Source: Loxodes magnus (Eukaryota; Ciliophora; Karyorelictea; Loxodida; Loxodidae). From it: a DNA stretch of 64,000 bases. The position numbers and the translations under genes were made by a program. The stretch lies in NCBI GenBank assembly GCA_946699065.1, contig CAMPDV010000133.1:186001-250000 (forward strand). The letters are read 5' to 3'. Shown here one piece after another: positions 3,078 to 63,514 of the stretch. How positions within the stretch are numbered: position 1 is the first letter of the stretch; the number at the start of each line of letters is the position of its first letter. The notes under the pieces were generated by a model, which saw nothing but the letters and a program-made list of their open reading frames with translations, did not search any database and was not told the origin of the DNA.

Positions 3078-5162
3078 TCAATTTATTAGTGATTTATATT
3101 CTTGCTTCCAACTCTCGTATAAATCCCAATCTACATTTTTGTAATGACTGACAGCTGCCTTAATGACACCTTCAAAAGTTTCTTCGAAATTCTCGTATTC
3201 GACCTAGTCTTCTCTCACAGAAAAATGAGGACAAATTTTTATTGGACCAGGTTTTTCGTTGAGTAGAGAAATCCTTCTAATCTCTAGATCATTTTCGTCT
3301 AAAATTATAAACTGATTGAAATAATTCCTAGCATTCTCTACGTCACCTGTACTTCGATATACCTACAAGTGGGTTAAAAAGTCACTTATTAAATTTTTTC
3401 CAATTGTAAGTATCAGATCTGGGTTAAAATTAATGTAGAAATAATCCTTTTCTATGATAAAACTAAGTAATCTTTTATCTTGCATCATTACCTTTGTTAA
3501 AGCCCATCTAGCACAATCATGAGCTGATCCCCATTTTTTAGTATCCGGCTAATAAGATCTCACACCTGCGATTCCTCCTCTTACTTCTCCAAGTCACTAC
3601 CCATGCCTTTTTTATTCTATGTCTTAAATATTAAAAGCTTAGAAGGGAAGCTCATAACAGCTTAGATATAAAGCCACAGTATCTGATCTACATTCCTCAA
3701 AGCCATTTGCAAGCTCCTTGAAGACTGAAAAGAAGTTTTGTCCTTCTTTATATCCATACTATGAGAGACTTAAATTGGTTATAGGATTCTTAAGATGAGA
3801 AAGATTTTTAGTTTCTGATTCATAAAGTAATCTTCCTGATCCATGTCCTAATAGTTCATGCAACGCAACATGTACCTAGAAAGATATTTCACCATGGTCT
3901 AAAATTATTTACAAGTCCTTCTCATGTAGAAAATCTATAGTTTCTCTCTTAAGAATGGGGGGATTATTACCTAAGTATAGATTCTTGTATCCATATTTAT
4001 CTTTTATTTCATTTATATGGGGAAAGCATAGTCCGATAGGTACACCACCAAATGCAAAATTTAAGATATCGATTGAATTGAAGTTAGGGGCTTAAAACTT
4101 CTCCTTTTCGAATACTTTGTCATAAGGAAATTCACTTATCAGCTTCTCAGCGTTTGAAACTAGAGTATGAAAACCTTAGCTGGTAACTGGATTTCTTAAA
4201 GCTGTAAACGCACAAAGTTCACCTCTCACTCCTTATGGATCTGAATATGTTAAGAAGTGAGAGAACGAAGTTTCAACTACAGGATCATGATTATTTATCC
4301 AAAGTATTTACGATTTTTCAAAGCTTTCCATATCTCCCGTTTAGAAATAGTTTATATAATTCACTAATATTTATTGCTCAACTTCTGAACAATAAGGCAA
4401 GGCTTAAATCATCTAGTTAACTACTTTCTAAGCTATCGACTAAAAATCTCCACAACGGAATACTAAAGTTTTTCCTTAATACTGATGCTTCGTATTAAAC
4501 AGTCACTAAATCTTAGGATGAGGATGACTTTAGCATGACATTACTTTTATAATTATCTCATTTTCTTGACTTTTAGCTAGTCTTGTTATCATCAGCAACA
4601 TCTAGATCTTATTTTCCTTAAAGAACTGGTTAACAACATCTACATCCTATTATGTTATATTAGGCGTATAAAAATTACTTCTTCCTCCGTTTTCTGCTAA
4701 GGAGAGAATTGGCTCTTCTTTATAGACAAAGTCTTTCACCATATTCCAAATTTCTAGATTCTTCGGGTCTTTTGCAGGAACTTATTACAGAATCTGTTCG
4801 AAATCATTTTAAGGAAGTTCAGGTAAAATTTTGCTGTTTTAGAACCCTCGAAAATTGTTATGATTATAGAAAAACCCACTAACATATGCAATAAACTGAT
4901 TCCAACTCACTAGGTTTACCCCACTATCTATTACATTTTGCCTAAACTAATCCAAATTATTGTTCCCAAATATGTTTAAGAATAATGAAAACAAACCCGG
5001 AGCTTCATACGATTTTTAGAAATAAATCATCTTAGAAGCTTCATAACCTGCAGACACTAGATAGTAGGAATAAAATTTCTGTATATTAGTCAAGCTTTTC
5101 CAACTTTATTTGATATCTAAGTTTTTTATTGGAGTGTTTAGTTTTATATAGGGACAACTCAT
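3078..5162 (-). CDS. DPP3: Dipeptidyl peptidase 3 (M49 zinc metallopeptidase)
   Basis: One uninterrupted frame of 694 residues from ATG 5162 to TGA 3078-3080; human DPP3 has 737. The M49 family removes dipeptides from the N-terminus of short peptides in the cytosol. The zinc motif HELLGHGSG is at residues 435-443, with the two histidine ligands and the catalytic glutamate. The second motif EECRSD at 489-494 supplies the third zinc ligand. Further family stretches are visible: an early TxYY-like NFYTPNIT segment, DPxGVRGELCAF (human DPFGSRGEFEGF), FEKEKFQAPNFNSIDILNFA and the late STGDVENAR. Many Gln codons are TAA or TAG, so the standard code shows only fragments. It lies tandem with the polymerase alpha gene, 402 bp downstream of that gene's stop. 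No targeting signal is seen. Confidence 0.96.
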
Positions 5163-5564: not shown

Positions 5565-8507
5565 TCAATCAATGAAAAACTTTACGCATTTACTTTCTAG
5601 ATGCGAGTAAATTTTGTTTGATTGAAACTCTGCTGTTGTATACATCGCTTCTTTTTCTACTATTCTATCTATCTTCTATACTATCTCGTTTTGCTAACCT
5701 AACACGATGAAAAATTGTTTTATTTTTAGAAGTAGGAAAATGAAATCTCTGGTAGAAAAAGGCTTAGACTGGCATACTTCGCAGACATATTATACTCCAA
5801 GGAAATATTTACCACATTTTTCACAGTAACCTTAAGAATTCACCTACTTCTATAACTCCATTATCTGCACATGAGCTCTGTTCATTAAAGCTTTGATGTG
5901 ATTCTTCTACTAGCAAGACATACAGAGTATCTCCTAATTTTCTATCTAGTTTTGCAAATTATCAAAAGGATTATTGCAAAACAGGCAAGGAACAGTAATT
6001 TAGTTTTCTTCAGAGTTGTTGACAATTTGCTAGTGAATCTTTATTTACAAAGCAACTGCTAATTATTATTTATCACATATAGAGGAGCATAATCTTGAAA
6101 CTGGGTTATAAATTTGATTCTAAAGATACCATTTTAAATCAGGCTAAAGACCTTCAGCTTGCATTTCAGTAATATGTCTTGCTTTCTCACTTAAGTTATT
6201 TTTATGGGAAGGAATATCGCATATTATATAGTCTATATAATGATTTATCAGCTATTATATACTCAACTTCTAGCTAGCTAACATTCGTTTAGCTATTTAT
6301 ACATGAGGATGCGCATTCTCATTCTTATACTCTTTGGGATGTTTGGTTAGTTTTTAGCATATCTAAAAATCTTCAATAGGAACTTATCCATTCAGCACGT
6401 TTTCTCTTATTTAAGTAAGAAGCTAGTAGATTTCATCTCCAGCTATTGACTCATTTTCCTACTGAAATATTATATCTAATACTTTCTAGCATGTGATTTT
6501 GCATAGATTACTCCAATCTCTTCTAACCATATCAAGACCTTTTATTTCTATTTTTCCATCTTATCTCATAGCAGCATATTTTTTCTTCCCTAGCAAAAGA
6601 AACTTAATAAAGATACACTCAACCTCTATTGTCAAGAATTTGTATTGTTTGTTAATCTTGCTTGCAATCTCTCTAGCGATAGTCCAACATTTCTAGATGT
6701 CCTTTATGTTGCAGTGAATCATAACTGAGTCAGTATCTCCGTATATAACTTGCAGACCTTAAGATTCTATTATTGATTTTGTTGCCAATAAGATATCTCT
6801 TCCATTCTGTGTGATTAATGCAGCCAATTGAGGACAGTAAAATCTGCATTTATCAAATCCAAGTACTCCATACATTGAATTAGCTGTCAGCTTTAGAGCT
6901 TTTTACTATATTTCTAATTAGGATTTTTTCATCTCATTGTTAGTCTTTGAAATCTCCTGCTTTACTTATCTTCTCTCCTCTACCAAATTTTGAATTAACG
7001 TTGGCAAAATTTTAGTTGATTAACTATCCTGATAAATACTAGAAAAGCATAGTCCATATTCAATAATAATGCTAGGATACAGACTATTAAAATCAAGTAA
7101 TAAAACAGGGTTAGTGTAAAACTTCTTTTAGGGGTCTAATACTTTACCTCCTACGAACCCTTGCTTCTTTTAGTTGCTCATATCTGGAACAATAAGGTCA
7201 TGCGATTGAAACTGGTGCATCAGAAACATTTCATTACATTTAGCTCTCTAACCTGATAGAGAAGTCTACCAAGTTGCTCCTGTAATATTAGATATTTGCT
7301 TAGTTAAAGGAATTATTTACATCTACTAAACAAGGTCAAGTATTAAATTCTTATCTAGTACAAGTTACTCCTGGATGTTATCTACTTCAGTCCTTTATTT
7401 CTTAAGGATTTAATTAGTTAGTGTGTTAAGACTATAGTCTTTTAGGTTTATTAAACCTTAAGCTGAGTGGTATAGATCTAACAGCAATATATCCAGATTC
7501 CAAAACTCATCCTTCCTATTTTATCTCCATATCTATTTAAGTGGTTCCAGATCGTATCCTATTAAGATATCAGCTTTCTTAAATTCTGCCTTAAATCTAT
7601 CTAGCATAGAGAGAGTATTCACACACTTTACTCCATTCTATTTAGTTTAAATTTACTAAGAATGTTCTCTATAAATAACTGTATGATCTTAAATACTTTG
7701 AGATTCGAACTAGCATTAAGAATTTAGAGTAGCTTTGTTGAATATAATGTAATCCAAATTTTATTACTAGAAACTGTATGTAAACAAGATAACTACCAGT
7801 TATGGGGTTTATAAGCTTTGATTAGAGATTAGTTCCTTTACTTTTATCTTTTCCGCTTAGATACAAGGAGAAAACTCAGATATTTTATCTTCTATTTACA
7901 ACCAGCAAGATCCCTTAATACCTTTTTCAAGTAAAAAATCCTCTAAAAGACTAACTGTATGTCCATATAGCATTAGCCTCTCATTCCTAAAGATATTTAC
8001 AATCTGATTTCTTTTTTCAATATTATTCCAGTCATAACTTCCTTTTATTTGCAATTTGAACATTTTGCCTGTAAATTATTCCTCTCTGAATATTTATTGT
8101 GCAACTATCTTCTGACATGCAATATCCCCAATAGATTTAATTTTCTTCTTGATGTTTAAAAATTTTTCGTTTAAAGATTCTAAATTAATGTCTTCATCCA
8201 TTAGTTCTATATACAACGTTTTACAAAAGTCCAATACCTTAATATCGATCTTTTTATTGTTATGCTTTCCATAAATCCAAACTGAGTTGTTAACCTCTTT
8301 TGCACCTAAAATATAGAAATCTTCTAAAAAAATATTTCTACTAGTCTGCTTCTACCCAATCTCAACTATCATTTCTGATTATTTCTCAATATTCATGGGT
8401 GAATCCTCTTGATTAGGCAATTTGATAAGCTGCTATTCACTTTCTATCTTCTTTCCTATTTTTAGCTTAAAATCATTCTTCGATTTTTTGCTTGCCGGTT
8501 CAACCAT
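5565..8507 (-). CDS. POLA1: DNA polymerase alpha catalytic subunit (family B)
   Basis: Continuous frame of 980 residues, ATG 8507 to TGA 5565-5567. The polymerase alpha-primase complex starts every Okazaki fragment by extending RNA primers. All family B landmarks are in order: DFNSLYPSI (motif A, residues 472-480), KLTANSMYG (motif B, about 539-547) and YGDTDS (motif C, 589-594), each with its catalytic aspartates. Upstream, ITGATW and FVGGKVLDP match polymerase alpha rather than delta or epsilon. The C-terminus carries two four-cysteine metal modules, CLFCNN..CMSC and YCEKCG..CEVC, as in alpha. The N-terminus is short: human POLA1 has about 340 extra disordered residues. The ATG at 8507 ([10 protein letters not shown]) is chosen; the frame stays open about 59 codons upstream, but that part reads as AT-rich spacer. 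Confidence 0.96.
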
Positions 8508-9416: not shown

Positions 9417-11991
9417 TCAAAGACATTGCGACATTATTTTTTGTAGCTAACTCTCTAGATGAAGTATTCTGTACATTGAAATTATTGCCTGAGTATAATC
9501 AACTTACGTCCGTATTTTCTGTGCCTATCTTGCTGAAGACAAAATTACTAACTTCTTCTTGATCTTGTTCGTCTAATTCTTCGTTTTCTACTTTTTATCT
9601 GAAAAAAGAGTAAAATTCTTCAAATATTGCTTTACCAAGACATTTGATACATTCATTTTTTTTAGTTTGAATCAAGTTTTAATAATTTCTGACTTTTGTA
9701 TCTAGCTTTATTTTTCCAGTAGCACTTAGCATTTACCTCGTTGAATTATTATTTATCTCCTAAATTTTCGAAGCTTCTGTTGAAGCTTCTGTTGAAGCTT
9801 AAGAGGATTCTTATTAAACGAAATCTTCCTCTTCAAAATCAGAAGAAAAGCCAGATTGTTCGGCTTCTTTTACTTCTTCTAAACTTTATTCATTCTCATT
9901 TTCCTGCATTATTACTTACTTATTAATAATACTCCTCACTACTTGAATCGCTTTCTATTTCTTTTATCTATTAAACATCAACAGTTTTTGCAGTTGGAAT
10001 TAGTTCTTCTTCTTATTCCTTTTCTTCTTTACTAGGAATATTAGTTTGATCTCCAAATCAATCGTTTACTGTTTCTTGTTCGCTTTTTGAAAGTTGTTTA
10101 AAATTGCCTTAAAGCTTCTACTATTATTCTTTCTCATTTTCTTCATCTTCCTCTTCTTCCCTGTTATTTATTACATTTTCATCCTCAGAACTTTATTCTA
10201 TAGCCTACTCCTATTCTTCCACCTTTTCATTGTCAGATAAATCTTGTTTACTGCTAGAGCTATTTAAATCTTCTTATATATTTTATTTGTTAGCATTTTT
10301 ATTTCCCTATTCTTATTAAGCTGTGATTTTATATATTTACTTCTGTTCTGATTTATTTTAGTTAATTTATGTGCTATCCTGCTCATATACTCTATTAGGT
10401 TATGCGAAAGCTTATTTCTAATTTTATTCCTATTGCTAGCTAATCTTGCTTTACTTTGGAACTTCTGCTGATAAATTTTCTTTCGTTTATGGTTTTGTCT
10501 ACCCTTTTATCTTGGAAGATTGGTCTGCTTCTTTCCAATTACTTGCTGTTGGATATTTTTACTTTTTATCAGGTGAGTATTAAGGATTTTCAGGTAAATT
10601 TGCTACTTCTGCTATTTCTTACTTTTTGGCCTAGCTTTACTTTGTACCTTATTTAGATGTTGGTCTTTATATTTGATAAGGCATAAATGAAGGACCATCT
10701 TATCTCGATGGAACTCCTTTCGAAATTATTCTTTATTTTTAAATTTGTCTTGATATCAAAGGAGTATCTTTTTTGTTCTATTTCATCGGAGGAGTTATAA
10801 ATACAGGATCTTATGAAGCTGGTGTTTGGTATTTATCTCTATTTGGTGGGACAAAATTTTTATTTTATTGCTTTAGATCTTGCTATTGCTATTGCTACTG
10901 AATCACTGACAATGGTAGCCTTGGCTTATTTTTTTCTTAATTTTAGACATTTTAATTTGACTCTCCATTCGACCTAGTTTTAGAATTTTTATCTTACTGA
11001 TTTGGCTAAGAAGCGATAAGTTTCTTTTCCGATCCTCTTATGTTTTCAAGCCTTTAATTTTTGTCTTCTTCTGATGGTATGCCTCTGGTAATAGGTCTGT
11101 TTCTTATATTTCTAACTTCTTGCATTTCTTAGTATAAACATGAGGTTTATGGTATTTCTAAGCCACTTGCTGCTACTTTATCTTTAATTTACGCTAAAAT
11201 TTCTTCTACTTTTGGTCTTCTTCTGTGGTCTTTAAGTAGACATTAGTCAACAATCCTTCTTATCTCAACTCCATATGACGTGGAAATCGGTGCATATTTG
11301 CCTCGCAGTATTTTTAGAACTAATGCTCCTTAGTTGTTCGCGTCAAATGGATGCTTCAATGTACAAAGCTCATACAAAATACACCCTAATGCTCAGACGT
11401 CTGATTTCTCATTATAAGGCTTTTCTTCACACAGTTCTGGAGAAAGATAATATGGTGTTCCAACCATGGTTTGAGCATAAGCTGCAGTATTGGAGAGTAC
11501 TTTTGCAACTCCAAGATCTCCAAGTCTTATTTTATCCTCGGATTTTAGAAATACATTCATAGTTTTTAAGTCCCTATGAAGAACTTTCTGTTTATGTAAA
11601 TACTCTAAAGCTAAGCACACCTAAATAAAAAGTTTTCAGATTTTCGCTTCAGTCAGAGGTCTTTACATCTGCTACTTTAAATATTAAGACAAATCTCCTT
11701 TCTCACAATACTCCATTACAATATTGAGATGCTTATTTTCTATAAACGAGTCATAATATCTAACAACATAAATGTTATCAAGCGATGCTAATATTTTCAC
11801 TTCATTTATGGCATCTTACTGCTACCTTTTATCCATCTATGATATAACTATCTATTTCATTACGTATATTACTCCATCCTCTGAAATATAACAAATAACT
11901 TACTTCTCCTCTTCACTTTGTATACTGTTCCAAAGCTTCCTTAGCCTAGCTTTCCTAAGAAGTCAAAATCTTTTTCGCCTGCTTTTTGCAT
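9417..11991 (-). CDS. NEK (NIMA-related) serine/threonine kinase with long acidic tail
   Basis: Kinase of 838 residues in four exons; introns at 11881-11903 (23 nt), 9904-9919 (16 nt) and 9489-9507 (19 nt). The kinase domain covers about residues 1-260: glycine loop GQGSFGTVYKV, VAIK-type Lys in YVMKQIV, HRDLK at 131-135, DLG in place of DFG (common in ciliate NEK kinases), then GTPYYLSPE and SDVWALGVVLYEL. NEK kinases act on centrioles, cilia and mitosis and are greatly expanded in ciliates. The rest is a low-complexity tail rich in Gln, Glu, Asn and Ser with acidic stretches and a Thr-Glu-Ala-Ser repeat near 9780-9800. At least one in-frame TGA (Asp-Trp-Phe near 10060) is read as Trp. The last two introns rest on frame and splice-site consensus alone, so the extreme C-terminus is less sure than the kinase domain. 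Confidence 0.92.
9489..9507 (-). other. Intron, 19 nt (NEK kinase gene)
   Basis: GTAAGTTGATTATACTCAG on the minus strand. Without removal the frame stops at the TGA inside it; with removal it runs 23 codons further to TGA 9417-9419. Confidence 0.6.
9904..9919 (-). other. Intron, 16 nt (NEK kinase gene)
   Basis: GTAAGTAATAATGCAG on the minus strand. Removal restores a highly acidic Glu/Ser/Gln-rich frame; retention gives an unlike basic frame that ends soon after. Confidence 0.7.
11881..11903 (-). other. Intron, 23 nt (NEK kinase gene)
   Basis: Starts GTAAGT and ends TTTCAG on the minus strand, between kinase subdomains I and II. It is needed to join the glycine loop to the YVMKQ lysine region in one frame. 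Confidence 0.85.
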
Positions 11992-17305: not shown

Positions 17306-18334
17306 TCACTCATCCTCTAATATGCTTTTGTATGTTTGCAAAGTACATTCACCTCCTGCTTATGGATCAAAATTTGCCAAATAGTAACTTCCTTCGTTAG
17401 ATAGAACTATTATCGTATTAGGGTCAGCACCAAAGGATACTATTGGTCGCAGATCGGGAACTCTAAACTAAGCAAAGCTTCATTCTGAATCGAAGTATGG
17501 AAGCAGCTTTTTCATAAAGGAAAATTTGGATTTTGGGTTAGAAGGTTGTTATGGTTATTCACTGTTCTCTCCTGCTTACTTAAGCCAAAAGATATGAATA
17601 GTTCCCTTGTCAGAACTGCAAGCAACTCAGCGGGAGCTGAAATCAAAAGCTAAGGAGTAAATTTCAGCTCTAGGAATTCCACGTCGTAGCTCTTATAAAT
17701 TTTCTCCTTTTTAAGTATCAAAAATTCGAATAACAGTTCCTTTCTCGCTAGCAGAAGCTAATTTAGTTCCATCTGGGTTTAAGGCAATACAAGCCAAAGT
17801 AGTGGAATGTGCTCTAATAACAGTACTGATTTGGATATTATAATCTCTTATTATTATTTGTCCTTTAGTAGTTTCCGGACAGGCTAGAACAACGCTATCT
17901 TTACTTGAAGTTAAAGCACATAATCCAAGAGGGTTATTACAAGTCTCTAGAGTATCAACTAGTTTTAGCTCAAGAAAATTATAGACATAAATTTTGTTCT
18001 CTAGGATAACTACAACTCTATCTCTCCTTAATCTTACACCTTTCACTTCGCTTCTAAAGCATAACTCTCCTATACATCTCATTTAATGATCATCCCATAA
18101 CATTACTTTATTAGGAGGGTATCTTGGACTCTTACCTCCTCCAACTAAGGCAAGAATGTTACATCTATACAACATCTCCACAATACCTATTCCACCTGTA
18201 AATTCTCTTTTGAAAGTGAACTTAAAAGGCATAGTATTATATATTCTAAAACCACTATCAGTTCCACATGCGAAACAACCAGCGTCTTAATTAAATCCTA
18301 TGTAGAGCAAATCTTCTTTTTATTTGTTTTCCAT
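17306..18334 (-). CDS. PROPPIN autophagy protein, WIPI3/WIPI4 (WDR45) type
   Basis: 342 residues in one frame, ATG 18334 to TGA 17306-17308. PROPPINs are seven-bladed beta-propellers that bind PtdIns3P and PtdIns(3,5)P2 on autophagic membranes. The phosphoinositide motif is seen as LRRG at residues 216-219, followed by the family sequence [12 protein letters not shown]; in homologues it reads F/L-R-R-G. Other hallmarks are [29 protein letters not shown]-like [42 protein letters not shown] and the late GTIHIFWL. These fit the WDR45/WDR45B subgroup better than WIPI1/2. Two in-frame TGA codons (SSR-Trp-VAC and SE-Trp-SFAQF) are read as Trp. The N-terminal [17 protein letters not shown] starts where homologues begin, supporting the start. 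Confidence 0.95.
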
Positions 18335-20147: not shown

Positions 20148-20951
20148 ATGATTAAAAACCCTTCTAGGGTATTTAGAGCTCTCACTAAAGTGGAATAAGC
20201 TGCAGTTGAGCTTATTAATAATTAGCAAGAAGGTAGTTTAGCCTAAATTTTTACTTGTGAACATGCGTCAAACAAACTACCTCCTGAATATAAATGGTCA
20301 AAAAGTGATAAGCAGTTTGAGGAAACTCATTGAGGGTATGATATTGGAGCTGCTAATTTAACTAGATTTCTTGCTAAGCATTTCAAAGCCTCTGCAGTGT
20401 TGACTAAATATAGCAGGTTGCTTCTTGATGTAAACAGAGTTCTTTAGTCGGATACTATGTTTAGAACTCATTGTGATTTCATAGAGTTAGATCTTAATAA
20501 GAATTGAAATGCGGAGGAAGAGTACAAGCGTATAATAAATGTATGGGTTCCTTATTATTAAGTTTTGAAGCATGTGTGCCAAGTCATCTAACCTAGATTT
20601 GTTTGGAGCATGCATAGTTTTACACCTGATTATCAAGGACAAAAAAGAGAAGTCGAAATAGGTGTACTTTGTGACTATAGAGAATTAGATTTCGCTAAAG
20701 AAGCTCTTCATTTGTTTAAGAATGCTGGCTTTAATGCTAAGATAAATGAACCTTGGTCAGGAGAGGGAGGATTAGCATTTGGTCCATAATCTTGTATCTA
20801 GTGAACATCGCCTTTGAAAAGCAGATATCTTGAATTTGAAGTAAGGAATGATATAATTTTGTAATCAGAAGTGTAAGAAAAAATAAAGCGAGTAATGAAC
20901 GAACTCATCCAGTTAGGATGGAGTAAGTTTCTAAGAGATGGATATCAATGA
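20148..20951 (+). CDS. N-formylglutamate amidohydrolase (FGase) family protein
   Basis: 267 residues, ATG 20148 to TGA 20949-20951, no intron. The family is made of zinc-dependent amidohydrolases, best known from bacterial histidine and glutamate catabolism. Visible family features in order are FTCEHASNKLPPEY (metal-binding His near residue 40), THWGYDIGAANLTRFLA, LLLDVNR (the conserved DxNR), an extended helix, then WSMHSFTPDY with the second metal His, IGVLCDYRELDFAKEAL, and INEPWSGEGGLAFG. The length suits the family. Four or more Trp codons are TGA and several Gln codons are TAA or TAG, so the gene is adapted to this nuclear code and is not a bacterial contaminant. The substrate cannot be deduced. 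The gene is rare in eukaryotes, so an ancient bacterial origin is possible. Confidence 0.9.
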
Positions 20952-22623: not shown

Positions 22624-24361
22624 ATGACTGATGTTGAAATTTAAACTCCTGAAGTCATTTCTGTCGAAGATGCCTTTTTTTAAGTGGGTGATAGACATAT
22701 CTATCAGTTTAAAGTCTTTATCTTCTCAAGTGTGTGTGCTGTTGTTAATGTTCTCTATATGGCAGGCTTGTCTATTATAATGGCTAGTCCAAAGTTTATC
22801 TGCACTGGATAATTAGAGTGTGAAGAAGAAGAGGCTTGCTAGTAAAGAGATAGTGAAGGCAAGTATACGTTTGAAGTGTGAAATGAATGAACAAGTCCAG
22901 TTAAAGAATGGTTAGTTATTAATATATAGGAATTTGTACTGTGAAAGGAACTTTTATTAGCAGTTTGCTAATAATCTCCTATTAATTAGCTTTGGATCTG
23001 GATGCTTAATTATATCTTATCTCTCTGATAAATTCTTAAGGAAAAAATGCGCTTTTTTAAGCTACTTGACCTAGATTGCAGGTTCTAGCATCATTGTTTT
23101 TTCTCCAAATTTAGATATTTTTCTTCTTGGTATTTTTATTGTGGGCTTTAGCTCAGGGGGTCTATTATTGAGTTCGGTAGTTCTGCTAATAGAATCGGTT
23201 GGTGAATAGAAAGCAAGATCTGGATTTTAAGTACTGACAAAGTGCATAGCTACGCTAGCATTCTTATTAATGGTACTGTTAGGGTATAAAACTAGTAATT
23301 GAAGGATTCTTTGTGCTGTTATAACTCTAATTAGCATAATAGGACTATTATCTCATAAGTCTATTTATGAAAGTCCAAAGTTTCTAGTATCTAACAAAGG
23401 AAACTACAAATTGGCTAAATTGGTATTGGAAAAAATCGCTTAAATAAATGGTAGAACTTTGGCAAAAATACAATCTCTTCAGGGAGAAAACAATGATAGC
23501 AAGTAATTAACTCATGCGTTGCAGATAAAAGGTAGTTACAATTACTGACATCTTTATAAGTACCCAAGCTTGAGATTTATAACTGTGGTATTGAACATAA
23601 CTTGACTAGCTATAGCATTCTCAAATAACATATTCATATTTAAGATTAAATTAAGCTTCGATAATTTGTAGCTTAGTCTTGGCGTTTTAGCCGCTCTAGA
23701 ACTGATTGGAGGCCTATTAACCATATTGTCAGTACTACTCATCAATAGAGTCTCAAGTCTTGCAATACTTACTACTGCTATATGTAGCTCTGCTTTCTTT
23801 TATGTGATCTCTGAAAAATTTGAATTGTATCTTTGAAGTATAATTAACCTTTCACTAGGCTATTGAGGAAGTTGCATAGCATTTGGAGTTTTATATGTAT
23901 AAGTAGGGGAAATATATCCTACAGTTGTAAAGTAAAAGGCATATGGATTACTAAGTACTTTCTGGGTTCTAGGGTAGATTTTGACTTTAAATGCTAAGTG
24001 TCTTTAAGATTCCAAAAGTTAGGGCTTTATGATATTAGTCGCCTTCATTAATTTGCTTCTATGCTTTTTAGTGGTAAAGATAAACGAAACTAAAAACCAA
24101 CCTATTTAAGACTATATAGATGAAGAAATGAAGTTTAGGAATAAGCATGATGAAAGTAAAGTTGAGGAAGAGTTTGTGTAGCACGTATTCTAAGTGAATA
24201 CATTGTAACCTTTATCAACTATAAAAAATGAAAATGAAACAAGGGGTTCAGTCACTGAATCACTTACAAACAGAATCAAGGAAAGTATCGAAGGGAAAAC
24301 TGCAAAATATGCAGGCAACTTTGGAGCTTTGAATGAAGATGGAACTGAGAAGAGAATGTGA
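22624..24361 (+). CDS. MFS transporter, organic cation/anion (SLC22/SV2) type
   Basis: 572 residues in two exons, ATG 22624 to TGA 24359-24361, split by a 19-nt intron at 22911-22929. MFS carriers have twelve membrane helices and move small solutes. Organic-ion-carrier features are visible: a first helix, an extracellular loop with several Cys and Trp, then KEWNLYCERNF (the WxLxC signature) directly across the splice junction. Then come GSGCLIISYLSDKFLRKKC (MFS motif A, usually GxxxDRxGRR), WRILCAVITL, the PESPRWL-equivalent YESPKFLVSNK, ELIGG in helix 8 and VGEIYPTVVKQKAYGL (equivalent of ELYPTxVRxxG). The cytoplasmic tail is acidic and hydrophilic. At least seven Trp codons are TGA. The next TGA-containing stretch downstream is not homologous, supporting this stop. 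The substrate is not predictable. Confidence 0.9.
22911..22929 (+). other. Intron, 19 nt (MFS transporter gene)
   Basis: GTTAGTTATTAATATATAG. Removal fuses KEW to NLYCER and places the downstream MFS motifs in the same frame as the start codon; retention puts them out of frame. Confidence 0.92.
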
Positions 24362-31023: not shown

Positions 31024-31506
31024 TCATTATGTGATCAGGAATAAAGAGAGCAAAGAGGCAAGTAAAGTGATAGTTGAGGCTATTAAAATCAAAATAGTCT
31101 TTTCTTAGTTTAAATTTCAGTAAGAACAGTCTTCTTCATCTTCGTTATCATCATTTACAAAACAGTTTTGATATAGCATAGAGAATTAGATTACAAAACA
31201 CCCTGAGAGGATAAACATATATGCAGAGTAAAACGACTAATATATACCTCACATCTAAAGCTTTTTTCTCGTACTTGTTCAACTCCTAAATACAATACAC
31301 AAGCAGGGTACATAAAATAAAGCAGGAAACAGATCTAAAAAAATAGCTAAGATCTAGAATGCAGAAATATAAGTTACAGAAAATATAATCAAACTTGAAA
31401 AGCATAGAATGCTAACTATTGCTTAGATTACCATGGTAATTAAGAAACTTTACTAATAGCTCTTTTTATATTAAGCGCAGAAGAATTGCTTCAATTCAAA
31501 GTCCAT
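31024..31506 (-). CDS. Small four-transmembrane protein
   Basis: 160 residues, ATG 31506 to TGA 31024-31026, no intron. After a short cytosolic start with Cys and Lys/Tyr there are four well separated hydrophobic helices: about residues 23-45, 50-72, 88-108 and 137-158. A basic loop (RSWTSTRKKLQMW) lies between helices 2 and 3. A very acidic, cysteine-bracketed loop (CFVNDDNEDEEDC) lies between helices 3 and 4. The arrangement resembles tetraspan vesicle proteins in outline, but no CCG or other family signature is present. The positive-inside rule puts the acidic loop outside or in the lumen, where the two cysteines could pair. Function unknown. Confidence 0.68.
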
Positions 31507-32367: not shown

Positions 32368-33728
32368 ATGTCATTGGCTTGTGTAAGTGACTTGGATTGT
32401 GAAACTATGTGGCTATGTGTGAACTCTGTTTGCTAACACAAAGATTTTTTCCCTGTAACGCTGATGGAGTTTTTCGGAATCATATCCATTTTTGTTGCTT
32501 GCGCTTTGGCAACTGCAGGAGGTGTGAGTGGAGGTGGACTTCCTTGGACTATACTTATTATTCTTTTCAATTTCGATACACATTAAGTTGCTCCTTTGAA
32601 TCATTCAATTCTCTTTGTTAGTGCTCTGATCAGTTTAGCTTTAAACTTTTATTAAAAGCATCCTTAACGAGATGCTCCTGTGATTGACTTCAATATGACG
32701 ATGCTACTCTTGCCTTAATTCTTATTCGGAACTACTTTGGGTGTAATACTCAATAAATCTTTCCCTCAGTGACTAATTTTGGCTTCTCTTTCCATTATTC
32801 TATGTATCAACACTTATAAAGTTTGGCAAAGGTAAGTTGTATCTATAATAAAGAGGAAAGCAGACTTGGAAGTAAGAAAATCTAAAAAAGATGAATGAGA
32901 GCTTAAGCGAAAAACTGATTTAAAAGGAGGAAAAATAGGAGAATCTTGATGCAAACTAGTAAGAAGCTCAAAACAATTCTGAACTTAACTAGATTATAGA
33001 AGAAGAGCGAAATAAATGTCCTGGCAAATAAAACTTAGCATTAATCTCTGTGGTACTCGTTATTATTATTTCATCATTACTTAAAGGAGGTAACAAAGTT
33101 GAAAGCATAATAGGTATAAGCCACTGTGGGTTCTGGTTTTGAGCAATAGAATTTTTGGCTTTTGCTATCTGTCTTTTTTTCACTATTGTATTCGCAAAAT
33201 ACATATCACAGCTACATGAAAAGAAGCTTAAAGCAGGATACTAATTTAAGGATGGTGATATTCATCTTAATTTTAAGAAAACGAGTAAATTTGTACTATT
33301 TAGTTATTTACAATGTGATTGCAGCAGGAGTTGGCATAATCTGCGGACTGCTAGGTATAGCAGGTGGACTTTTAGTAGCTCCACTACTTTTAGGAATGGG
33401 ACTTTTGCCAGAAGTAGCAGCTGCTACAAATGCTTTTATAGTCCTTTTTATTACCTTTTGCACTATTGTTTAGTATTTTATTTTTGGAATAGTTGAGATG
33501 ACTTATTTATGCTATCTCTGCCTTGTTAGTGTTTTTGGAAGTCTTTTTGGACTAAAAGTTCTAAGGAAAGTTGTAGAATATTACTAAAGACCCAGCATAA
33601 TAGTCTTCACAATCTTGCTGGTGCTACTCATCGCTACAATTATTCTACCCATACGTGGATTAATAAACTTGATAAACGACATCAACAAGGGAAGTGATGG
33701 ATTATGGTTCCAGCCTTTATGCAAATGA
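32368..33728 (+). CDS. TauE/SafE-family membrane transporter
   Basis: 439 residues in three exons, ATG 32368 to TGA 33726-33728; introns at 32832-32853 (22 nt) and 33285-33303 (19 nt). The TauE/SafE family exports sulfonates, sulfite or related anions and has two homologous membrane halves. Both are visible. The first contains ALATAGGVSGGGLPW and NHSILFVSAL. The second contains AGVGIICGLLGIAGGLLVAPLL and AAATNAFIVLF, the repeated Gly-rich motif of the family. They are joined by a long charged Gln/Glu/Lys-rich cytoplasmic linker of about 90 residues. The N-terminus has four Cys in a spacing (CVSDLDCETMWLCVNSVC) typical of ciliate members, followed by HKDFFPVTLMEFFGI. A signal peptide is not seen before it, so the start may be incomplete. 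Spliced length is divisible by three. Confidence 0.9.
32832..32853 (+). other. Intron, 22 nt (TauE/SafE gene)
   Basis: Begins GTAAGTTGTATC and ends AAAG. It joins the first membrane half to the Gln/Glu-rich linker in frame. Confidence 0.85.
33285..33303 (+). other. Intron, 19 nt (TauE/SafE gene)
   Basis: GTAAATTTGTACTATTTAG. Removal links FKKT to the second Gly-rich half (NVIAAGVGIICGLLG); without it the two halves are in different frames. Confidence 0.9.
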
Positions 33729-36100: not shown

Positions 36101-36406
36101 AGAAGGAGCATCTTTCACATTTACAATTATTTAATATAAGGTCTTCTTGTTTAATAAATGTATCTTTCCCTTTTATTTTTATTCCTTTTATCATATTCAA
36201 AAGAGATCAATCATAATTGTTCTCTTCTACTATACGCAGATGAAGATCAATATGTGATATCTTAATAAATTAAAGCTTTACTTTTTACAAGCTTAGCATA
36301 TATAGCATGGTAAGATAGTAAGCTTGCAACTAAGTAGGTCTTTCAATTATTAGTATCTTTATTAGATCATCATTTTGATTCTTTTGATAGCTTCTAGATT
36401 AGATAA
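36101..36406. other. Short spacer
   Basis: About 300 bp between the RING/B-box gene and the WD40 gene, both on the plus strand; it presumably includes the 3' end of one and the promoter of the other. No element recognised. Confidence 0.4.
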
Positions 36407-39174: not shown

Positions 39175-39837
39175 ATGGATTTCCCTGTTTGGTTTTTCAC
39201 TTTAGGCTATATAACATAACACGTGGGAAGTTGTATTCTGATTTATAAACTTAGAAAAACAAAATCTATCGATGGCTTATCTCCTCATACTTAGTAGGCT
39301 TATTTAATTGGAGCTTTAACTCGATGTGTATGAATTTTTGATACAAGACTTACAGACTTTCCTTTGGCCTATTTGGAAATTTTAGCTAGTATTTTATTAG
39401 CTGGATACTGTGTCTGGCTATGCCACACTCTTCGTCATACTCTTACTGTCGTACCTGATAAATGGCTAAGAACACCTCTTATTTGTGGGCTTTCTGCCGT
39501 CTTAAGTCTGATTTTTCATCCAGGTTCAAAGGGCCCTTATTGGTTTACAGTTCAAATGCTTGTTTCATTCTCTATGTTTGTTGAATCGATGGGGTTACTT
39601 CCACAACTAGTACTAATGCGAAAGAGTGGGGAAGTTGAAGGATTGACAAGCCACTATCTAATGTGTTTAGGTATTTCCAGATTATTAAGACTAACATTTT
39701 GGCTAATGCTTTGGTTTGAAGGAGATGTGTTTATTTATTTAGTTTTTGCTGATCTCTTGCATACTCTTTTGCTCGGAGATTTTGCCTTTTACTATTTCAA
39801 GAGCATCAAGAGTGGAACCCCTCTCTTAATAAGATGA
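39175..39837 (+). CDS. KDEL-receptor (ERD2)-like seven-helix membrane protein
   Basis: 220 residues, ATG 39175 to TGA 39835-39837, no intron. ERD2 proteins return KDEL/HDEL-tagged ER proteins from Golgi to ER. The sequence has seven hydrophobic segments. Family blocks include KTKSIDGLSPHTQQAYLIGALTR early (receptor: SCAGISGKSQ..), ESMGLLPQLVLMRKSGEVEGLTSHYL (human [27 protein letters not shown]), and the C-terminal FADLLHTLLLGDFAFYYFKS (human AGLVQTVLYCDFFYLYITK). The Asp-Gly-Leu-Ser and His-Thr-Gln residues of the first loop recall the plant ERD2-like paralogues more than the classic receptor, so it may be that paralogue. One in-frame TGA (RCV-Trp-IF) and three TAA/TAG codons lie in the first third, so the standard code sees only the last 157 residues. 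Confidence 0.88.
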
Positions 39838-47887: not shown

Positions 47888-49282
47888 ATGTTCATCAGAA
47901 GGTTGGTTAGGAGAGCTTATCAGGGTGGTTTGAAGGATGCTGATAGAATTTTTACCAATTTGTATAATGATGGAGATAGATATTTAAATGGAGCTTTGAA
48001 AAGAGGAGATTGGTATCGCACTAATGATATTCTCTCAATGGGTCATGACTGAATTATAAATGAAATTAAGAAATCCGGCCTTAGAGGTAGAGGAGGTGCT
48101 GGATTTCCTTCTGGTTTGAAATATAGTTTTATGCCTAAGGTTTCTGATGGTAGGCCAAGTTTTTTGGTAATAAATGCTGATGAATCTGAGCCTGGAACTT
48201 GCAAAGATAGAGAAATTATGAGATTTGATCCTCATAAATTAGTAGAAGGAGCTCTTGTTGTTGGCTTCGGAATGAGAGCATCAGCTGCTTATATCTATAT
48301 CCGAGGAGAGTTTTATAATGAAGCTTAAGTACTTGAAAATGCGATCCATGAAGCATATGAAAAAGGACTTTTAGGACCTAATGCATGTGGATCTGGTTAT
48401 AGTTTTGATGTTTATGTTTAAAGAGGAGCAGGAGCTTACATTTGCGGTGAAGAATCTGCTTTAATTGAAAGCTTAGAAGGAAAATAAGGAAAGCCTAGAA
48501 TTAAGCCTCCTTTTCCAGCAAATGTAGGACTTTGGGGATGTCCTACTACTGTAACAAATGTTGAGACTGTTTCAGTTGTTCCAACTATTATGAGAAGAGG
48601 AGGAGAATGGTTTGCTTCCTTTGGCAGAAAAGGTAACAGCGGTACTAAGCTCTTTTGCATATCTGGTAATGTGAATAATCCATGTACAGTAGAAGAAGAA
48701 ATGTCTATTCCTCTGAGAGAACTAATTGAAAAGCATGCAGGTGGTGTAAGAGGTGGATGGGATAATTTGCTTGCCATTATTCCTGGAGGTTCTTCTGTTC
48801 CAATGTTACCTAAAAATGTATGTGAAGAAGTTCTTATGGATTTCGATGATTTAATTAGAGTAAAATCCGGTCTAGGAACAGCAGCAGTTATAGTAATGGA
48901 TAAATCAATAGATCCAATTGATGCAATCTAAAGATTAGCATGGTTTTACAAGCACGAGAGTTGTGGATAATGCACTCCTTGCAGAGAAGGAACAACCTGA
49001 CTCTACGATCTCCTTACAAGAATGAAGTATGGACAAGCAGATTTTGCTGAAATAGATTAACTATAAGAACTTACAACTCAAATAGAAAAGCACACAATTT
49101 GTGCACTAGGAGATGCAGCTGCTTGGCCAGTTCAAGGCCTTATTAAAAACTTTAGGCATGTAATTGAAGAAAGAATAGACGATTTCTGGGCTAAAAACCC
49201 TCACTATGCCAAATAGCCAATTACCTCATATCCCAATATTGAATAGAGTAAGACAACCCAAAATCTTCAATTCATCAAGTGA
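47888..49282 (+). CDS. NDUFV1: NADH dehydrogenase (complex I) flavoprotein 1, 51-kDa subunit
   Basis: 464 residues in one frame, ATG 47888 to TGA 49280-49282. This subunit binds FMN, the substrate NADH and iron-sulfur cluster N3 at the tip of mitochondrial complex I. Family sequences run throughout: [15 protein letters not shown] (NADH/FMN site), [50 protein letters not shown] and [12 protein letters not shown]. The four cluster ligands are Cys359, Cys362, Cys365 (SCGQCTPCREG) and Cys405 (HTICALGD), with the same spacing as bovine 379/382/385/425. [12 protein letters not shown] is a plausible mitochondrial presequence. The gene is the best proof of the code: TAA or TAG stands at conserved Gln (GKQGKPR, CGQCTP) and TGA at conserved Trp (HD-Trp-II; the second at TT-Trp-LYD), while another TGA terminates. 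Nuclear location of the gene is inferred from its code and spacers. Confidence 0.98.
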
Positions 49283-50547
49283 TAAATTATTTAAAACTAT
49301 CCTAAGTATTATTATAATTAAAGCATTTAACTCCTTAATATCATTATTCAAAGGTAAGAGTAAGGCAGATCAAAATCATTGGATAGTCATTTTTACTCAT
49401 ACCAACGATTTCCATTTATTAACTTATACGGTAATTTTCCAGTCTTATTCTATTTTTATCTTCTAATTGATTAACTAAAACAACATAAGGAAATTATATT
49501 AAGATACTATTCCCTTCATTCTTAACCTTATAGAATAAACTAAATTTATCTTAGCTAAATTTTAGCTTCTTCAAATCAGTTCCCTCTTTGATATAATATT
49601 CCTTATAAGTTCCTATAAAGGAGTAATAAGCTAAATCTTAAAACTCTTTATTATGTAATTTATCAATACTAAGGGCATTTAAATCTGCTTATAATTGTTT
49701 CATAAAGAGTGTGTAATTACTTAAAAGTCACTAAATCATAATAGCTTACCTTTCTAATACCTCCAGTTTATACTAATAACCCTAGTTACGTACCTTGTAT
49801 TTACTACAAAGTTTTCTAAATTAATATAATAGACTCAATTAATTAAATAGCTGATACAGCACCTTAAATTACAAGAATAAACTGCAAAGTAAGAATCGAA
49901 GGTATGTTCATATAGAGACTTTATAGTATAAATTTATGAAGATAGGTCTATTTATTACCTTTTGTCTATTACCAAAAGAAACTGTAATGATTAAGCAATA
50001 GAACCGGAAAAGTAATTTGAGTGACTTTATGTGACTCTTAGTTGCTCAAAGCTAAAAGGAAGAATAGTGAGCAGATAAATAATTAGTGTATGAATATATC
50101 TAATATATAGGTTATTACGTCTCTCTTATAAGCTAAGTTATTTAATAGTAACACTACATTTAAATATTTCCTATTTAAGACTTTAGAATTTTTAGCTTCT
50201 AAGTAATATTACTTACAGTGCTTAATACTACACACTTTAGAAAACAGCAATTAAGAGTAAAACATTAAGGGACTAATTTTTGCCTAATGTAACAAAAGTG
50301 TTTTGCAAGATATTTCCCTTTTATTTAATCTAACCAATTTAGGGTTAGAAACCAAGGAAAAGTTCTATTAATGTAGATAAGAATTCAGATTAAAGCTAGG
50401 AAATAAAGCTATAGAGATAGGAGAATCAGTAAGAGAGATATAATAAAGGAGGGATGGAGTAGAGATAGGTATACTTGTTGAAGAGTGGATTGGATATTTA
50501 TTTAAAGTAAGTTGAAGTTTAATTGGCTTAGAAATAATAAAATACAA
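49283..50547. other. Spacer without a recognised gene
   Basis: About 1.27 kb between NDUFV1 and the acyl-CoA-synthetase gene. One plus frame is open for about 740 nt to 50022 but has no start or motif of note. Region 50345-50520 contains a purine-rich plus strand. No RNA or repeat recognised. Confidence 0.35.
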
Positions 50548-52086
50548 ATGGAGTTGCCAATAATTAAAAATGCTTTCTAAGCTTTGACTAGAAGAGCTAC
50601 CGTTTGTAAGAAGGGTACTTTTAGCTATCAAGACTTGCTTAGAAAATCAGCAAGTGTTAGTGAAAAATTGCTGAAGATTTTCGGTTAGAAAAGCCTATCT
50701 GGAGCAAGAGTTTGCTTTTTATGCTCTCCTGGAATTGATTATGTAGCTACTTAATGGGGAATTTGAAGAGCAGGTGGAATTGCAGTTCCTTTATGCACTG
50801 CTCATCCAGTTCCAGAATTGGAATATGTAGTTCAACATTGCTAAAGTAATTTTGTGATAGGAAACAGTGTATTTAATGAAAGGCTTAAATAACTAAAGGA
50901 TAGAAACTAAAACATATCTTTATACTTCAATGAAGAGATTTAAGAACAAAATAGACTTGAAGTTAATGTTGAAGTTCCTATTTAAAATCCAGGGATGATT
51001 TTATATACATCAGGTACTACAAGCAAACCTAAAGGAGTTGTATTAACCCATTTAAATTTAGAATCTCAGTGTTAAAGTTTAATAAAGGCATGGGAATGAA
51101 CAAAAGATGATTATATCTTAAACGTACTTCCATTGCATCATACACACGGAATCATAAATGTGCTTTGCTGTGCTCTAAGATCAAATGCTACTTGTTAGTT
51201 CTTATCTAAGTTTGATGCAGGAAAGATTTGGAATTTATGATAAGAGTAAAACTTTACCTTATTTATGGCAGTTCCTACTATTTACTATTCCCTTATCAAG
51301 CACTTTAACTAACAATCCTAGGAAGAGCAAAATAAAATGCGAGAGGCTTGTAAAAAGTTCAGATTGATGGTTTCAGGATCAGCTGCTTTACCCACTTAAA
51401 CATTCGATAAATGGTAGTAAATATCAGGCCATAGACTCTTAGAAAGATTTGGAATGACTGAGATTGGAATGGGCTTATCAAACTCTTATAAAGGTTCAAG
51501 AATACCAGGATATGTTGGAATAGAACTGCCAGGAGTTTAAGTAAAGCTAATTGATGAAAAGCACCAATTCATAAATGAAAGTAATGTACCAGGAGAAATT
51601 TTAGTAAAGAGCTAAAACATCTTTAAGGAATATTATAACAATCCTAAAGCCACTTAGAACTCCTTTTGGAATGAATGGTTTTTAACAGGAGATATTGCTT
51701 TTAGAGATGCTTAAAATGAAAACTACTATAAAATCTTAGGAAGAGCATCATAGGATATCATTAAATCAGGTGGATATAAAATCTCAGCTTTAGAGATTGA
51801 AAACGAAATAAGGAATCTAGATTGGATAGATGATGTAACTGTTATTGGCATGAGTGACGAAAAATGGGGAGAAGTAGTAGCAGCCGCTATATGTGTTAAG
51901 AGTAAGTTCAAAGGTAAAACTGAGCAAGAAATAAACAATTAAATTAAAGATTGGCTACATACTAAAATAGCTAACTACAAAGTCCCTAAAATAATTATTG
52001 TTCTAGATGAATTACCAAAAAATGCAATGGGAAAAGTAGTGAAGCCAACAGTAAAGGAAATATTAGCGAAGTGCATTAAGAATTGA
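50548..52086 (+). CDS. AMP-forming acyl-CoA ligase, malonyl-CoA synthetase (ACSF3) type
   Basis: 512 residues in one frame, ATG 50548 to TGA 52084-52086. The ANL superfamily activates a carboxylate with ATP and transfers it to CoA; ACSF3 makes malonyl-CoA in mitochondria. Motifs: phosphate loop [12 protein letters not shown] (from residue 153), [46 protein letters not shown] (F301-E305), [24 protein letters not shown] (377-384), [21 protein letters not shown] and the catalytic lysine in PKNAMGK496. MTEIGMxLSN and the PGYVG..LPGV stretch favour the malonyl/methylmalonyl group (ACSF3, MatB) over acetyl or long-chain ligases. A mitochondrial presequence is not obvious. Three Trp codons are TGA (GI-Trp-RAGG, AWE-Trp-TKDD, WNL-Trp-QEQ), all in the first half. 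Confidence 0.92.
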
Positions 52087-59174: not shown

Positions 59175-60044
59175 ATGGCTACTGCGGGAGATAATATAGG
59201 GATGATGGAAGGAGCTTATTGGGTTGGGAGGAAAGAACTGATCGACTGGGTTAACTCCTAACTAAGCTTGAACCTTCATAAAGTTGAGTAATGTGCTGCT
59301 GGGAATGTTTATTGCCAGATAGTTGATATGATCTGGCCTGGTTCTATTCCAATGCATAAGATCAAGTGAGGAGCTAAGGCTGATTTTGAGTTCGTTCAAA
59401 ATTACAAAGTATTACAGTAGGGATTTGAAAAGGTAGGAGTTAAGAAAGTGATTGATGTTGAAAAGCTGATTAAAGCTAAGTATCAAGATAACTTGGAATT
59501 CTTGCAGTGAATTAAAAATCTCTGGGATAAAAATTATAATCAAGCTGAGTATAACGCAGTCGAAAGGAGAAAGGGATAAGATGTTGCCTTTTTGTCATAA
59601 GGAGGAAATTCAAAAATAAGTAAGATTTAAAGAGCTCCTTTAAATGTGCAAGCTCCAGCAGTTGCTCAGTAAAAGAAACCCCAACCCATAAAGCATCATG
59701 TTTAAGGGAATGCTAACAAAAATGAATAACCTTCTTCTGAGCTATAACAGAAAATAGCACATCTATAGGAGCTAGTTAACGAATAGGAAAACATTAAAAG
59801 TGGACTAGAAGGAGAAAAGAAATTTTATATCAACAAAGTGTAATTACTAAGCTAAATGATAGATTCATATTAAAACTAAAATGACCCACTTATTATAGGT
59901 CTAAAAAAACTGATGAATGCATAAAATCCTACTGAAGAAGTTGTTCAGTAAATAATAAAAGAATTCCAACCTTCTCAAAGTGAGTTTGCAGATTAATAAA
60001 TGAATATAGAGGAGTTCGGCGAAAATGATATGGAGACTCTTTGA
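59175..60044 (+). CDS. EB1-family microtubule plus-end-binding protein
   Basis: 289 residues in one frame, ATG 59175 to TGA 60042-60044. EB proteins track growing microtubule plus ends and recruit other plus-end proteins. An N-terminal calponin-homology domain (about residues 10-125) is clear: YWVGRKELIDWVNSQLSLNL, AAGNVYCQIVDMIWPGSIPM, KIKWGAKADFEFVQNYKVLQ, then LIKAKYQDNLEFLQWIKNLWDKNY (human: [24 protein letters not shown]). A basic Pro/Gln-rich linker follows. The C-terminal EB homology coiled coil then holds the family sequence in which EREKDFYFGKLRNIE-type residues appear as EGEKKFYINKVQLLSQMID. The very end (NIEEFGENDMETL) replaces the human EEY/F motif. Two Trp codons in the CH domain are TGA; none follows in the last 170 codons before the terminating TGA. 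Confidence 0.96.
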
Positions 60045-61207: not shown

Positions 61208-63514
61208 ATGAGCAAGGAAAAGTAAGTAAACATGAATATTCCTTTTGTAACTAAGAAGATATAAATGAAAAACTTACAATCTGGATATTTAAAAACCAAA
61301 ACGCAAAACATTTTGAGTCCCTTTTTGGAGATTGAAGATGAATCGGAGGAAGAAAAAAAAAATGTCAAACAGTTTTTGACTCCTACGGCTAGCTTAAAGG
61401 CGCTTAAGTAGTAGAAGCTTTAATTTTTTAATAGACAGCAAGATTTAGAGAATTTAAAACTGGAGGTAGAAAAAAAGTTCAATAGAAGTTTTGAGTCTTA
61501 AAGTATGCTAAAATAGTATATAGTCCATAAGATGAAAAAATCTAAGTAATAAACTAATGAAAAAGCAGAATAGTCTATGATTGTGGGCAATCAGAAATTT
61601 AACTGCTTGCTATAGCCTTGAATGAAGAAAATAACTACAAAGATATTCAAAGATACTCAAGAAAAATTTTTGCAAGTATTTTGGACTAAAAGAAGTGGTT
61701 CTGTTACTAAACCTTCAACTAGAGAAGGCTCAACTCTTTTGTATTATAACCAAAATATTTATCTGTATGGAGGGTTTAATAGTCAATCCTTTGGAGAAGT
61801 ACATAGGATTGAATGCATTACATGGTAATGAGATGAAATATAAACTAGAAACGGTCCACCGGCCAGATATGGACATTCTGCAGATATTTTCAAGTAGAAT
61901 ATGATTGTGTTTGGAGGGTAAATAAAGATAGTAGGAGAAAAGAATAAATCATCTATAAAAGATGTTTGGATGTTTGATATGAATCTTCATGTCTGAAAAT
62001 AAATTCAAACTAAAGGATTTATAGTTGACTCAAGGAAATATCATGCTAGTTGCATTCTTGGGAAGTATTTGTTTATCTAGGGTGGAATTACATAAGGAGG
62101 AAATTTTTTGGATGATTGTCTTGTATTGAGTCTTGAAACATATAAGTGATATTTAATGTCTAAATTCTCTCATGGTCATTAATCTTAAACAGACAAAAAA
62201 AACCCAGGAGCTTTGGCTTTCCATAAATCAACAGCTGTTTATTGACTAGCATAATATACCCAAGAGTGGTATCAAATGGATTTAGTCAATGCAAGCAACC
62301 TGAACAATAAAAAGGGAAAAACAGTAAACTTCTAGTAGGGAATTTATATGTTTGGAGGAATGAATGAAAATGGGTAAGTAGTTAATGATCTGTGAATTGG
62401 AACGATTTACTAAAAGAAATTATCCTGATAACTAGCTAGCTAGTTTTCAGGTAGAAAGCCAAGTCCTAGGTGTTAGCATTCTTAAGTTCTAATTAATAAT
62501 CTGGATTATCTTTGTATATTTGGAGGAAGAAACTAGTAATAGGTATGTTTAAGCGATATGTTCATTCTTGATTTAGAATAGCTAACTTGGATGGTGGTTT
62601 GGCATTATGGATTGATCCCTAAAGGTAGATGCGCACATGCAGCTACTAGTATTGATTCCAGAATGATAATTTTCGGGGGTATAGGAAAATAATACTGCTC
62701 ATCAAAGCTACATATTTGTGAGTTGGAAAAAAAGAAATCTCAGAAATGTATAGCTGATGATATAAAAAGAAAGCAGAAGTAAGAAAAACTAGCTTAGAAA
62801 ATAGAAAACTTAATCAAGAGGAATAAGAAACTCCAGATTTCATAGCAGCTTGAAAAAGAGTTCGATCAAGACAGAGAACTAAGACATGTCTTCACTAAAT
62901 TTTTCACAGAAACAACCGATAATATAACCCAATAGGAGCAAAAAAAGCTAAAGCAAGGTTATTGAGCTAATTACATTTTAGAAAAACACTTAGGAAGCTA
63001 TTTGCAGATTAAATTCTAGAAAAAGTAGGAAAAAAAATTTTAGCTCATGAATGACCAAATGCAACCATAAGCTTAAATGAATTAAGAAGAAACGAAAAAG
63101 TTAATCGCTTAAAAGATTAAATACAATATAGAAGAGAAGAAGCCTTTGCTTTAGTTTAATAAGAAATAAAGGGGGAGCATTCTAAGTAATTTTATGAAAT
63201 TGGATAATTCTCTTAACGTAATTCCTAAATATCATTTAAACTACTCTGAAGAAGCTGAGAAGAAGGAATAAATTCCTAGGAACTAAAGTCAAAAAATCTT
63301 ATAGCCTATAATTAAAGAAGAACCACTTAAAATTAGTATCCCTTAAACTAGAGAAGTAACTCCAATTCCAAAAATATACAATTCAGTCAACACTCCATAA
63401 AACTTCGACAAAATATTACAAGAAACAAGCAAAAAGTTAATAATGAAAACCATGCCGAAAATTATATAGCGTAAAAAGCCCGGTAAGAAGGAACTTAATA
63501 CTTTTATGTTCTGA
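61208..63514 (+). CDS. Large kelch-repeat protein with C-terminal coiled coil
   Basis: 768 residues in one frame, ATG 61208 to TGA 63512-63514. About 140 N-terminal residues are charged and partly helical (LENLKLEVEKKFNRSFESQS). A six-bladed kelch propeller follows at about 180-510, with blade cores IYLYGGFNSQSF, MIVFGGQIK, YLFIQGGITQGG, IYMFGGMNENG, LCIFGGRNQQQ and MIIFGGIGKQ, each paired with a Trp-containing strand (for example DVWMFDMNLHVW, NDLWIGTIYQKKLSW, LEQLTWMVVWH). The rest is a Lys/Gln/Glu-rich coiled coil (QEKLAQKIENLIKRNKKLQI) and a basic tail with Thr-Pro sites. Ciliates and trypanosomes have similar kelch/coiled-coil proteins on cytoskeletal structures, but the function here is not known. 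Adjacent TAA and TGA codons within the first blade (Trp-Gln-Trp-Asp-Glu) illustrate the code. No intron is needed. Confidence 0.92.

Follow-up and report, generated by a model that had tools for sequence, protein, structure and literature searches.

Reassignment of all three standard stop codons to amino acids was published in 2016 for the ciliates Parduczia sp. and Condylostoma (Swart; PMC4967479). The karyorelict form of this code, NCBI table 27, reads TAA and TAG as Gln and TGA as Trp while terminating at TGA, and is stated to be the code of Loxodes magnus in PMC11441545, which cites Seah 2022. In Condylostoma magnum the three codons have the same sense meanings, and TAA and TAG serve as stops too. 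Condylostoma is reported to have Gln tRNAs that read UAA and UAG, with no tRNA-Trp(UCA) detected, and the proposed mode of termination is a context-specific override close to the ends of transcripts (PMC4967479). In published data on the karyorelict code, UGA and UAA are depleted in the ~20 codons before the stop. The nonstop code of Blastocrithidia likewise reassigns all three stops and has TGA as Trp, as here; its TAR codons are described as Glu, with TAA as the stop. The Condylostoma code is table 28 and that of Blastocrithidia table 31.

The window analysed here, a 64,000-nt stretch of Loxodes magnus DNA, was read as karyorelict macronuclear DNA using code 27, with TAA and TAG as Gln and TGA as Trp inside genes and as the stop at their ends (probability about 0.97). 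No difference in meaning was found from table 27 as set out for Loxodes magnus (PMC11441545) and Parduczia sp. (PMC4967479). As in table 27 systems, introns are near 20 nt; an AT-rich stretch follows the stop and may correspond to the short AT-rich 3′ UTR of such systems. Loxodes introns have a mean of 19.3 nt and a mode of 17 nt, mostly spanning 16-25 nt, against 15-16 nt in heterotrichs (PMC11441545), and the only three introns placed in the window (19, 22 and 23 nt; Table 1) fit the former and not the latter. In nine window genes, GC content falls from 0.31-0.37 in the coding sequence to 0.15-0.27 over the first 60 nt beyond the stop; PMC11441545 gives similar values for L. magnus, 33.5% in coding sequence and 18.6% in the 3′ UTR. 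Sense TGA makes up 23 of 4536 codons (0.51%) in these nine genes, compared with 0.120% reported for Parduczia (PMC4967479).

The original prediction of a match to the karyorelict nuclear code of Loxodes and Parduczia thus holds for all three codon meanings and for termination at TGA, seen in nine of nine histone H4 genes. The code was already known and this reading of it is correct. Since it was published in 2016 and is stated for Loxodes, the window confirms it and adds little new.

Reassigned codons in NDUFV1 and other genes of the window

The gene for NDUFV1, the complex I 51-kDa subunit, is translated over its whole length in one frame that contains 7 TAA, 2 TAG and 2 TGA codons (Table 1). 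With stop triplets masked as X, its top solved relative is the Tetrahymena protein 7tgh_V1 (E 1.4e-234). Columns were counted over the best 120 of 7996 homologs. It had been proposed that the Gln residues of GKQGKPR and of the CGQCTPC motif are written TAA and that two in-frame TGA codons fall at Trp positions. Both proposals were borne out: the first two columns hold Gln in 76 and 120 of the 120 homologs and the latter two hold Trp in 115 and 119, with TGG at both TGA sites in a paralog (L004, contig C66). The other five TAA codons lie in columns that are variable or conserved for another residue, including a His column at codon 178 (96/120) and a Met column at codon 391 (111/120). Judged by these alignments, not every NDUFV1 codon is informative alone. 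Because both TAG codons lie in a tail that aligns poorly with outside homologs, such homologs support the meanings of TAA and TGA and are silent on TAG.

Homologs of NDUFV1 (120), DPP3 (45) and the polymerase (120) were used for two column tests. A profile test, which recovered 56 of 60 sense codons over the three families, assigned TGA to Trp (3 columns) and TAA to Gln (61 columns), with a score of 15.8 versus -0.6 for Lys and -29.0 for Glu; the latter margin separates the window from Blastocrithidia. For the 38 TAG columns, Ser came top and Gln third, 8.6 nats lower. An entropy-matched test gave a mean Gln share of 0.148 in the TAA columns versus 0.044 in matched columns (z 11) and a Trp share of 0.879 in the TGA columns (z 15). 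No residue was clearly enriched in the 38 TAG columns, where Ser was best (z 2.6; p 0.01 without correction for 20 residues) and Gln reached z 0.8. CAG, a genuine Gln codon, likewise gives a weak signal in this test (15 columns, z 1.2). Counting in-frame stop columns against protein families, the check attached to the original prediction, therefore bore it out for TAA and TGA and left TAG without a Gln signal. A test confined to the window would have left TAG undecided.

Pfam scans with code 27, covering part of the window, identified peptidase M49, DNA polymerase B, CFAP97, PROPPIN, N-formylglutamate amidohydrolase and an AMP-binding ligase, and further CFAP77, a CH domain (EB1), Kelch, MFS, TauE/SafE and KDEL receptor matches; a protein kinase aligned best to NEK1. 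Residue-by-residue alignments cover NDUFV1, DPP3, the polymerase, EB1, WIPI, the NEK-like kinase, the ligase and the KDEL receptor. In masked alignments to solved structures, one of two TGA codons falls at Trp in both EB1 and WIPI, the other being at Phe and at Leu, respectively. In the NEK-like kinase, TGA matches the Trp of KSDIW in all five alignments shown, four to NEK7 chains and one to NEK1; the second TGA is opposite Trp in the NEK7 chains and Leu in the NEK1 chain. Among the alignments shown to solved structures, TGA meets Trp at 0/3 sites in the acyl-CoA ligase and 0/1 in the KDEL receptor. The other genes named alongside NDUFV1 as sharing its pattern are all present.

Several other features of the window were recorded. 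A coding-like stretch of ~1267 codons on the minus strand (42220-46020), without a Pfam match, is rich in Gln codons (92 TAA, 42 TAG). Six-frame Pfam scans of a gene-poor 15 kb (26301-41302) returned a TauE/SafE-like gene and the KDEL receptor only. The cilium genes CFAP97 (14200-15510, minus strand) and CFAP77 (53613-54821, plus strand) are consistent with a ciliated cell. An in-frame TAA stands right after the stop TGA in NDUFV1 (49280-49285), in its paralog and in the acyl-CoA ligase (52084-52089). Neither a tRNA nor an Rfam family at gathering score was found in the window.

Table 1. Location of genes, reassigned NDUFV1 codons and introns in the window
Feature	Position	Strand	Details
DPP3 (peptidase M49)	3078..5162	-	20 TAA, 13 TAG, 2 TGA inside; stop TGA
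DNA polymerase family B (alpha-like)	5565..8507	-	38 TAA, 30 TAG, 0 TGA inside; end placed at TGA; start uncertain
NEK-like kinase, part examined	10502..11940	-	TAG at Gln of WFVQ; TGA at Trp of KSDIW
Intron, NEK-like kinase	11881..11903	-	23 nt, GTAAGT...CAG; predicted from frame change
WIPI/PROPPIN	17306..18334	-	9 TAA, 1 TAG, 2 TGA inside; stop TGA
N-formylglutamate amidohydrolase	20148..20951	+	7 TAA, 3 TAG, 3 TGA inside; end placed at TGA
MFS carrier	22985..23983	+	Pfam match only
Intron, TauE/SafE-like gene	32832..32853	+	22 nt; predicted from frame change
Intron, TauE/SafE-like gene	33285..33303	+	19 nt; predicted from frame change
KDEL receptor	39175..39837	+	two adjacent TAG, first at Gln of GISGKSQ; stop TGA
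NDUFV1, complex I 51-kDa subunit	47888..49282	+	single exon, 464 codons; terminal TGA 49280-49282
NDUFV1 internal codon numbers			TGA 55, 371; TAA 147, 178, 200, 348, 361, 391, 393; TAG 443, 453
Sense TGA, NDUFV1 codon 55 = Trp	48050..48052	+	Trp in 115/120 homologs; paralog L004 TGG
Sense TAA, NDUFV1 codon 200 (GKQGKPR) = Gln	48485..48487	+	Gln in 76/120 homologs; L004 also TAA
Sense TAA, NDUFV1 codon 361 (CGQCTPC, 4Fe-4S motif) = Gln	48968..48970	+	Gln in 120/120 homologs; L004 CAA
Sense TGA, NDUFV1 codon 371 = Trp	48998..49000	+	Trp in 119/120 homologs; paralog L004 TGG
Sense TAG, NDUFV1 codon 443 = Gln	49214..49216	+	paralog L004 CAG
Sense TAG, NDUFV1 codon 453 = Gln	49244..49246	+	paralog L004 CAA
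Acyl-CoA (malonyl-CoA-type) ligase	50548..52086	+	17 TAA, 6 TAG, 3 TGA inside; stop TGA
EB1	59175..60044	+	17 TAA, 3 TAG, 2 TGA inside; end placed at TGA
Kelch-repeat protein	61208..63514	+	30 TAA, 23 TAG, 8 TGA inside; end placed at TGA

Termination at TGA and the Condylostoma code

TGA serves as Trp inside genes and as the stop at gene ends, and position would decide which. Nine window genes were closed at TGA; these ends prove little alone, because they were placed at TGA by choice. The clearest evidence comes from histone H4, where all nine genes of the same genome carry TGA immediately behind the codon for the final Gly. In DPP3, WIPI, the ligase and the KDEL receptor, the stretch from the Pfam domain to the closing TGA is free of TAA and TAG, and the two late TAG codons of NDUFV1 correspond to Gln in the paralog, which ends at the matching TGA. 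Ends are less fixed in four genes (Kelch, EB1, polymerase and amidohydrolase), which have TAA or TAG between Pfam domain and TGA, and those of CFAP97, CFAP77, MFS, TauE and the kinase could not be placed and were left out. TAA or TAG as the stop was thus seen at 0/14 well-fixed ends (9 H4 and 5 window genes), with rare use elsewhere possible. Among 50 tubulin genes, ends were assessed in 23: the first in-frame TGA lies near the end of the match in 22, whereas in L043 the 150 nt beyond the match contain none. At the well-fixed ends TGA is the only stop seen, in line with table 27.

Across the nine window genes, the nearest sense codons precede the stop by 49 codons for TGA, 15 for TAA and 12 for TAG. 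The last 20 codons of these genes contain TAA at 3/180 positions (p 0.16) and TGA at 0/180 (p 0.39), so neither codon is significantly depleted in this sample of 180 codons.

These ends bear directly on whether the window could instead use the heterotrich code of Condylostoma, in which TAA, TAG and TGA can each also act as stops. Its sense meanings are identical in print (PMC4967479), and in the NDUFV1 tree the row nearest by path (P0002) is sister to Blepharisma. However, all nine H4 genes stop at TGA, no end at TAA or TAG fits DPP3, WIPI, the KDEL receptor, the ligase or NDUFV1, and introns of 19-23 nt exceed the 15-16 nt of heterotrichs. The tree, built with 68 of the 120 homologs, places NDUFV1 in a ciliate clade with support of 100/100 without resolving its place inside the ciliates. 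The Condylostoma code is consequently a very unlikely reading, although it is the strongest of the rivals to code 27.

The meaning of TAG in the wider genome

A second rival, with precedents in some other ciliates, holds that TAG differs in meaning from TAA (e.g., Ser, Glu or Leu) and draws on the lack of Gln enrichment in the 38 TAG columns of the three families. Pfam bit totals over 10 proteins were highest when TAG was read as Gln (1915.3), among only five readings tried, followed by Glu (1908.0), Lys (1904.5), Ser (1901.5) and Leu (1849.4); the lead over Glu is only 7.3 bits. TAG coincides with Gln in the WFVQ segment of NEK in 5/5 alignments shown and in the GISGKSQ segment of the KDEL receptor in 3/3. 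In alignments to solved structures, most TAG codons fall at other residues: 4/5 in the kinase, 1/2 in the KDEL receptor, 1/1 in WIPI and 5/5 aligned in the ligase. An avoidance of conserved sites by G-ending Gln codons (13/84 versus 1/53 columns) was considered and rejected: beta-tubulin Gln334 is TAG in 12/20 genes, so this avoidance does not generalise.

Codons were then compared in other genes of the Loxodes magnus assembly (705,730,643 bases in 7,843 contigs), in which the window is C133:186001-250000. In the nine histone H4 genes, the first invariant Gln is written CAA five times, CAG once, TAG twice and TAA once, and the second CAA seven times, CAG once and TAG once; these sites are presumably Gln27 and Gln93. 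The NDUFV1 paralog reads CAG and CAA where the window copy has its two TAG codons. It further has CAA at three of the window TAA sites and TAA at one window CAA, and four TAA codons are common to both copies; a single site with AAA versus TAA is a real amino-acid change. Tubulins comprised 50 genes in 22 clusters (30 listed loci and 20 picked from 64 further matches). With one gene per cluster, human Gln is met by 161/288 TAA and 55/100 TAG codons and human Trp by 35/46 TGA codons, next to 89/118 for CAA and 19/27 for CAG at Gln and 35/37 for TGG at Trp as controls.

Taken together, the H4 codons, the NDUFV1 paralog and the tubulins settle TAG as Gln, and a distinct meaning for TAG is highly improbable. 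The central claim, that TAR is Gln and TGA is Trp, accordingly stands, carried by homolog columns for TAA and TGA and by these three gene sets for TAG. One Gln tRNA pattern with a Tetrahymena-like stem had 0 genome matches. A tRNA family search returned many near-identical tRNA-Lys(UUU) genes (L064-L093); 27 of the 30 loci were scanned, each with a tRNA-Lys, and several adjoin tRNA-Ala(UGC) genes at short spacing. Neither result bears on the Trp and Gln tRNAs that would decode the reassigned codons.

The same comparisons address whether the many in-frame stop triplets could mark pseudogenes or sequencing errors under an ordinary or a TAR=Gln code. The triplets stand at Gln and Trp sites and exchange with CAR and TGG between copies of H4 and NDUFV1, and the genome's H4 and tubulin genes behave alike in this respect. 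Furthermore, sense-codon differences between the two NDUFV1 copies comprise 166 synonymous and 17 nonsynonymous changes, which points to purifying selection; the 17 include the tail, where one row (TGA versus TTT) was dropped as an alignment artefact of copies that differ in length. The H4 codons and the NDUFV1 paralog refute this explanation, which deserves even less credence than a distinct TAG. Least credible of all is a non-ciliate alveolate with a similar code, such as Amoebophrya sp. ex Karlodinium veneficum, in which all three stops are also described as encoding amino acids: NDUFV1 groups among ciliates (100/100, in a tree without an Amoebophrya row), and dinoflagellates and their kin, to our knowledge, lack complex I. 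Karyorelict code 27 is thus retained.

Uneven use of TGA among tubulin classes

Under code 27, Trp may be written TGA or TGG, and the choice differs sharply between tubulin classes. Canonical alpha- and beta-tubulins use TGA for 0/100 Trp codons (31 genes in 7 clusters; L005-L028, L031-L037), whereas other tubulins use it for 62/74 of their TGA and TGG codons (19 genes in 15 clusters; L029, L030, L038-L054); copies within arrays are not independent. For comparison, TGA accounts for 23/79 of these codons in the nine window genes. The share of TAR among Gln codons is 0.40 and 0.52 in canonical alpha- and beta-tubulins versus 0.82 in the other tubulins. Divergence in sequence is not a sufficient explanation of the TGA bias, since one TGA-rich beta-tubulin copy shares 84% identity with human. 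Contigs C64 and C237 together carry clusters of at least 24 alpha-tubulin genes, which have 85-86% identity to human.

These codon counts raise the tentative suggestion, rated somewhat below even odds, that sense TGA may be under strong gene-class selection in this genome. The tubulin bias may perhaps be less known than the code itself. With all 64 codons having a sense meaning and termination set by position, this code is among the most unusual known, and annotation tools built on the standard code would break most genes here. If selection of this kind does operate, decoding TGA as Trp would be costly, through slow decoding or occasional termination, and would be avoided by highly expressed genes.
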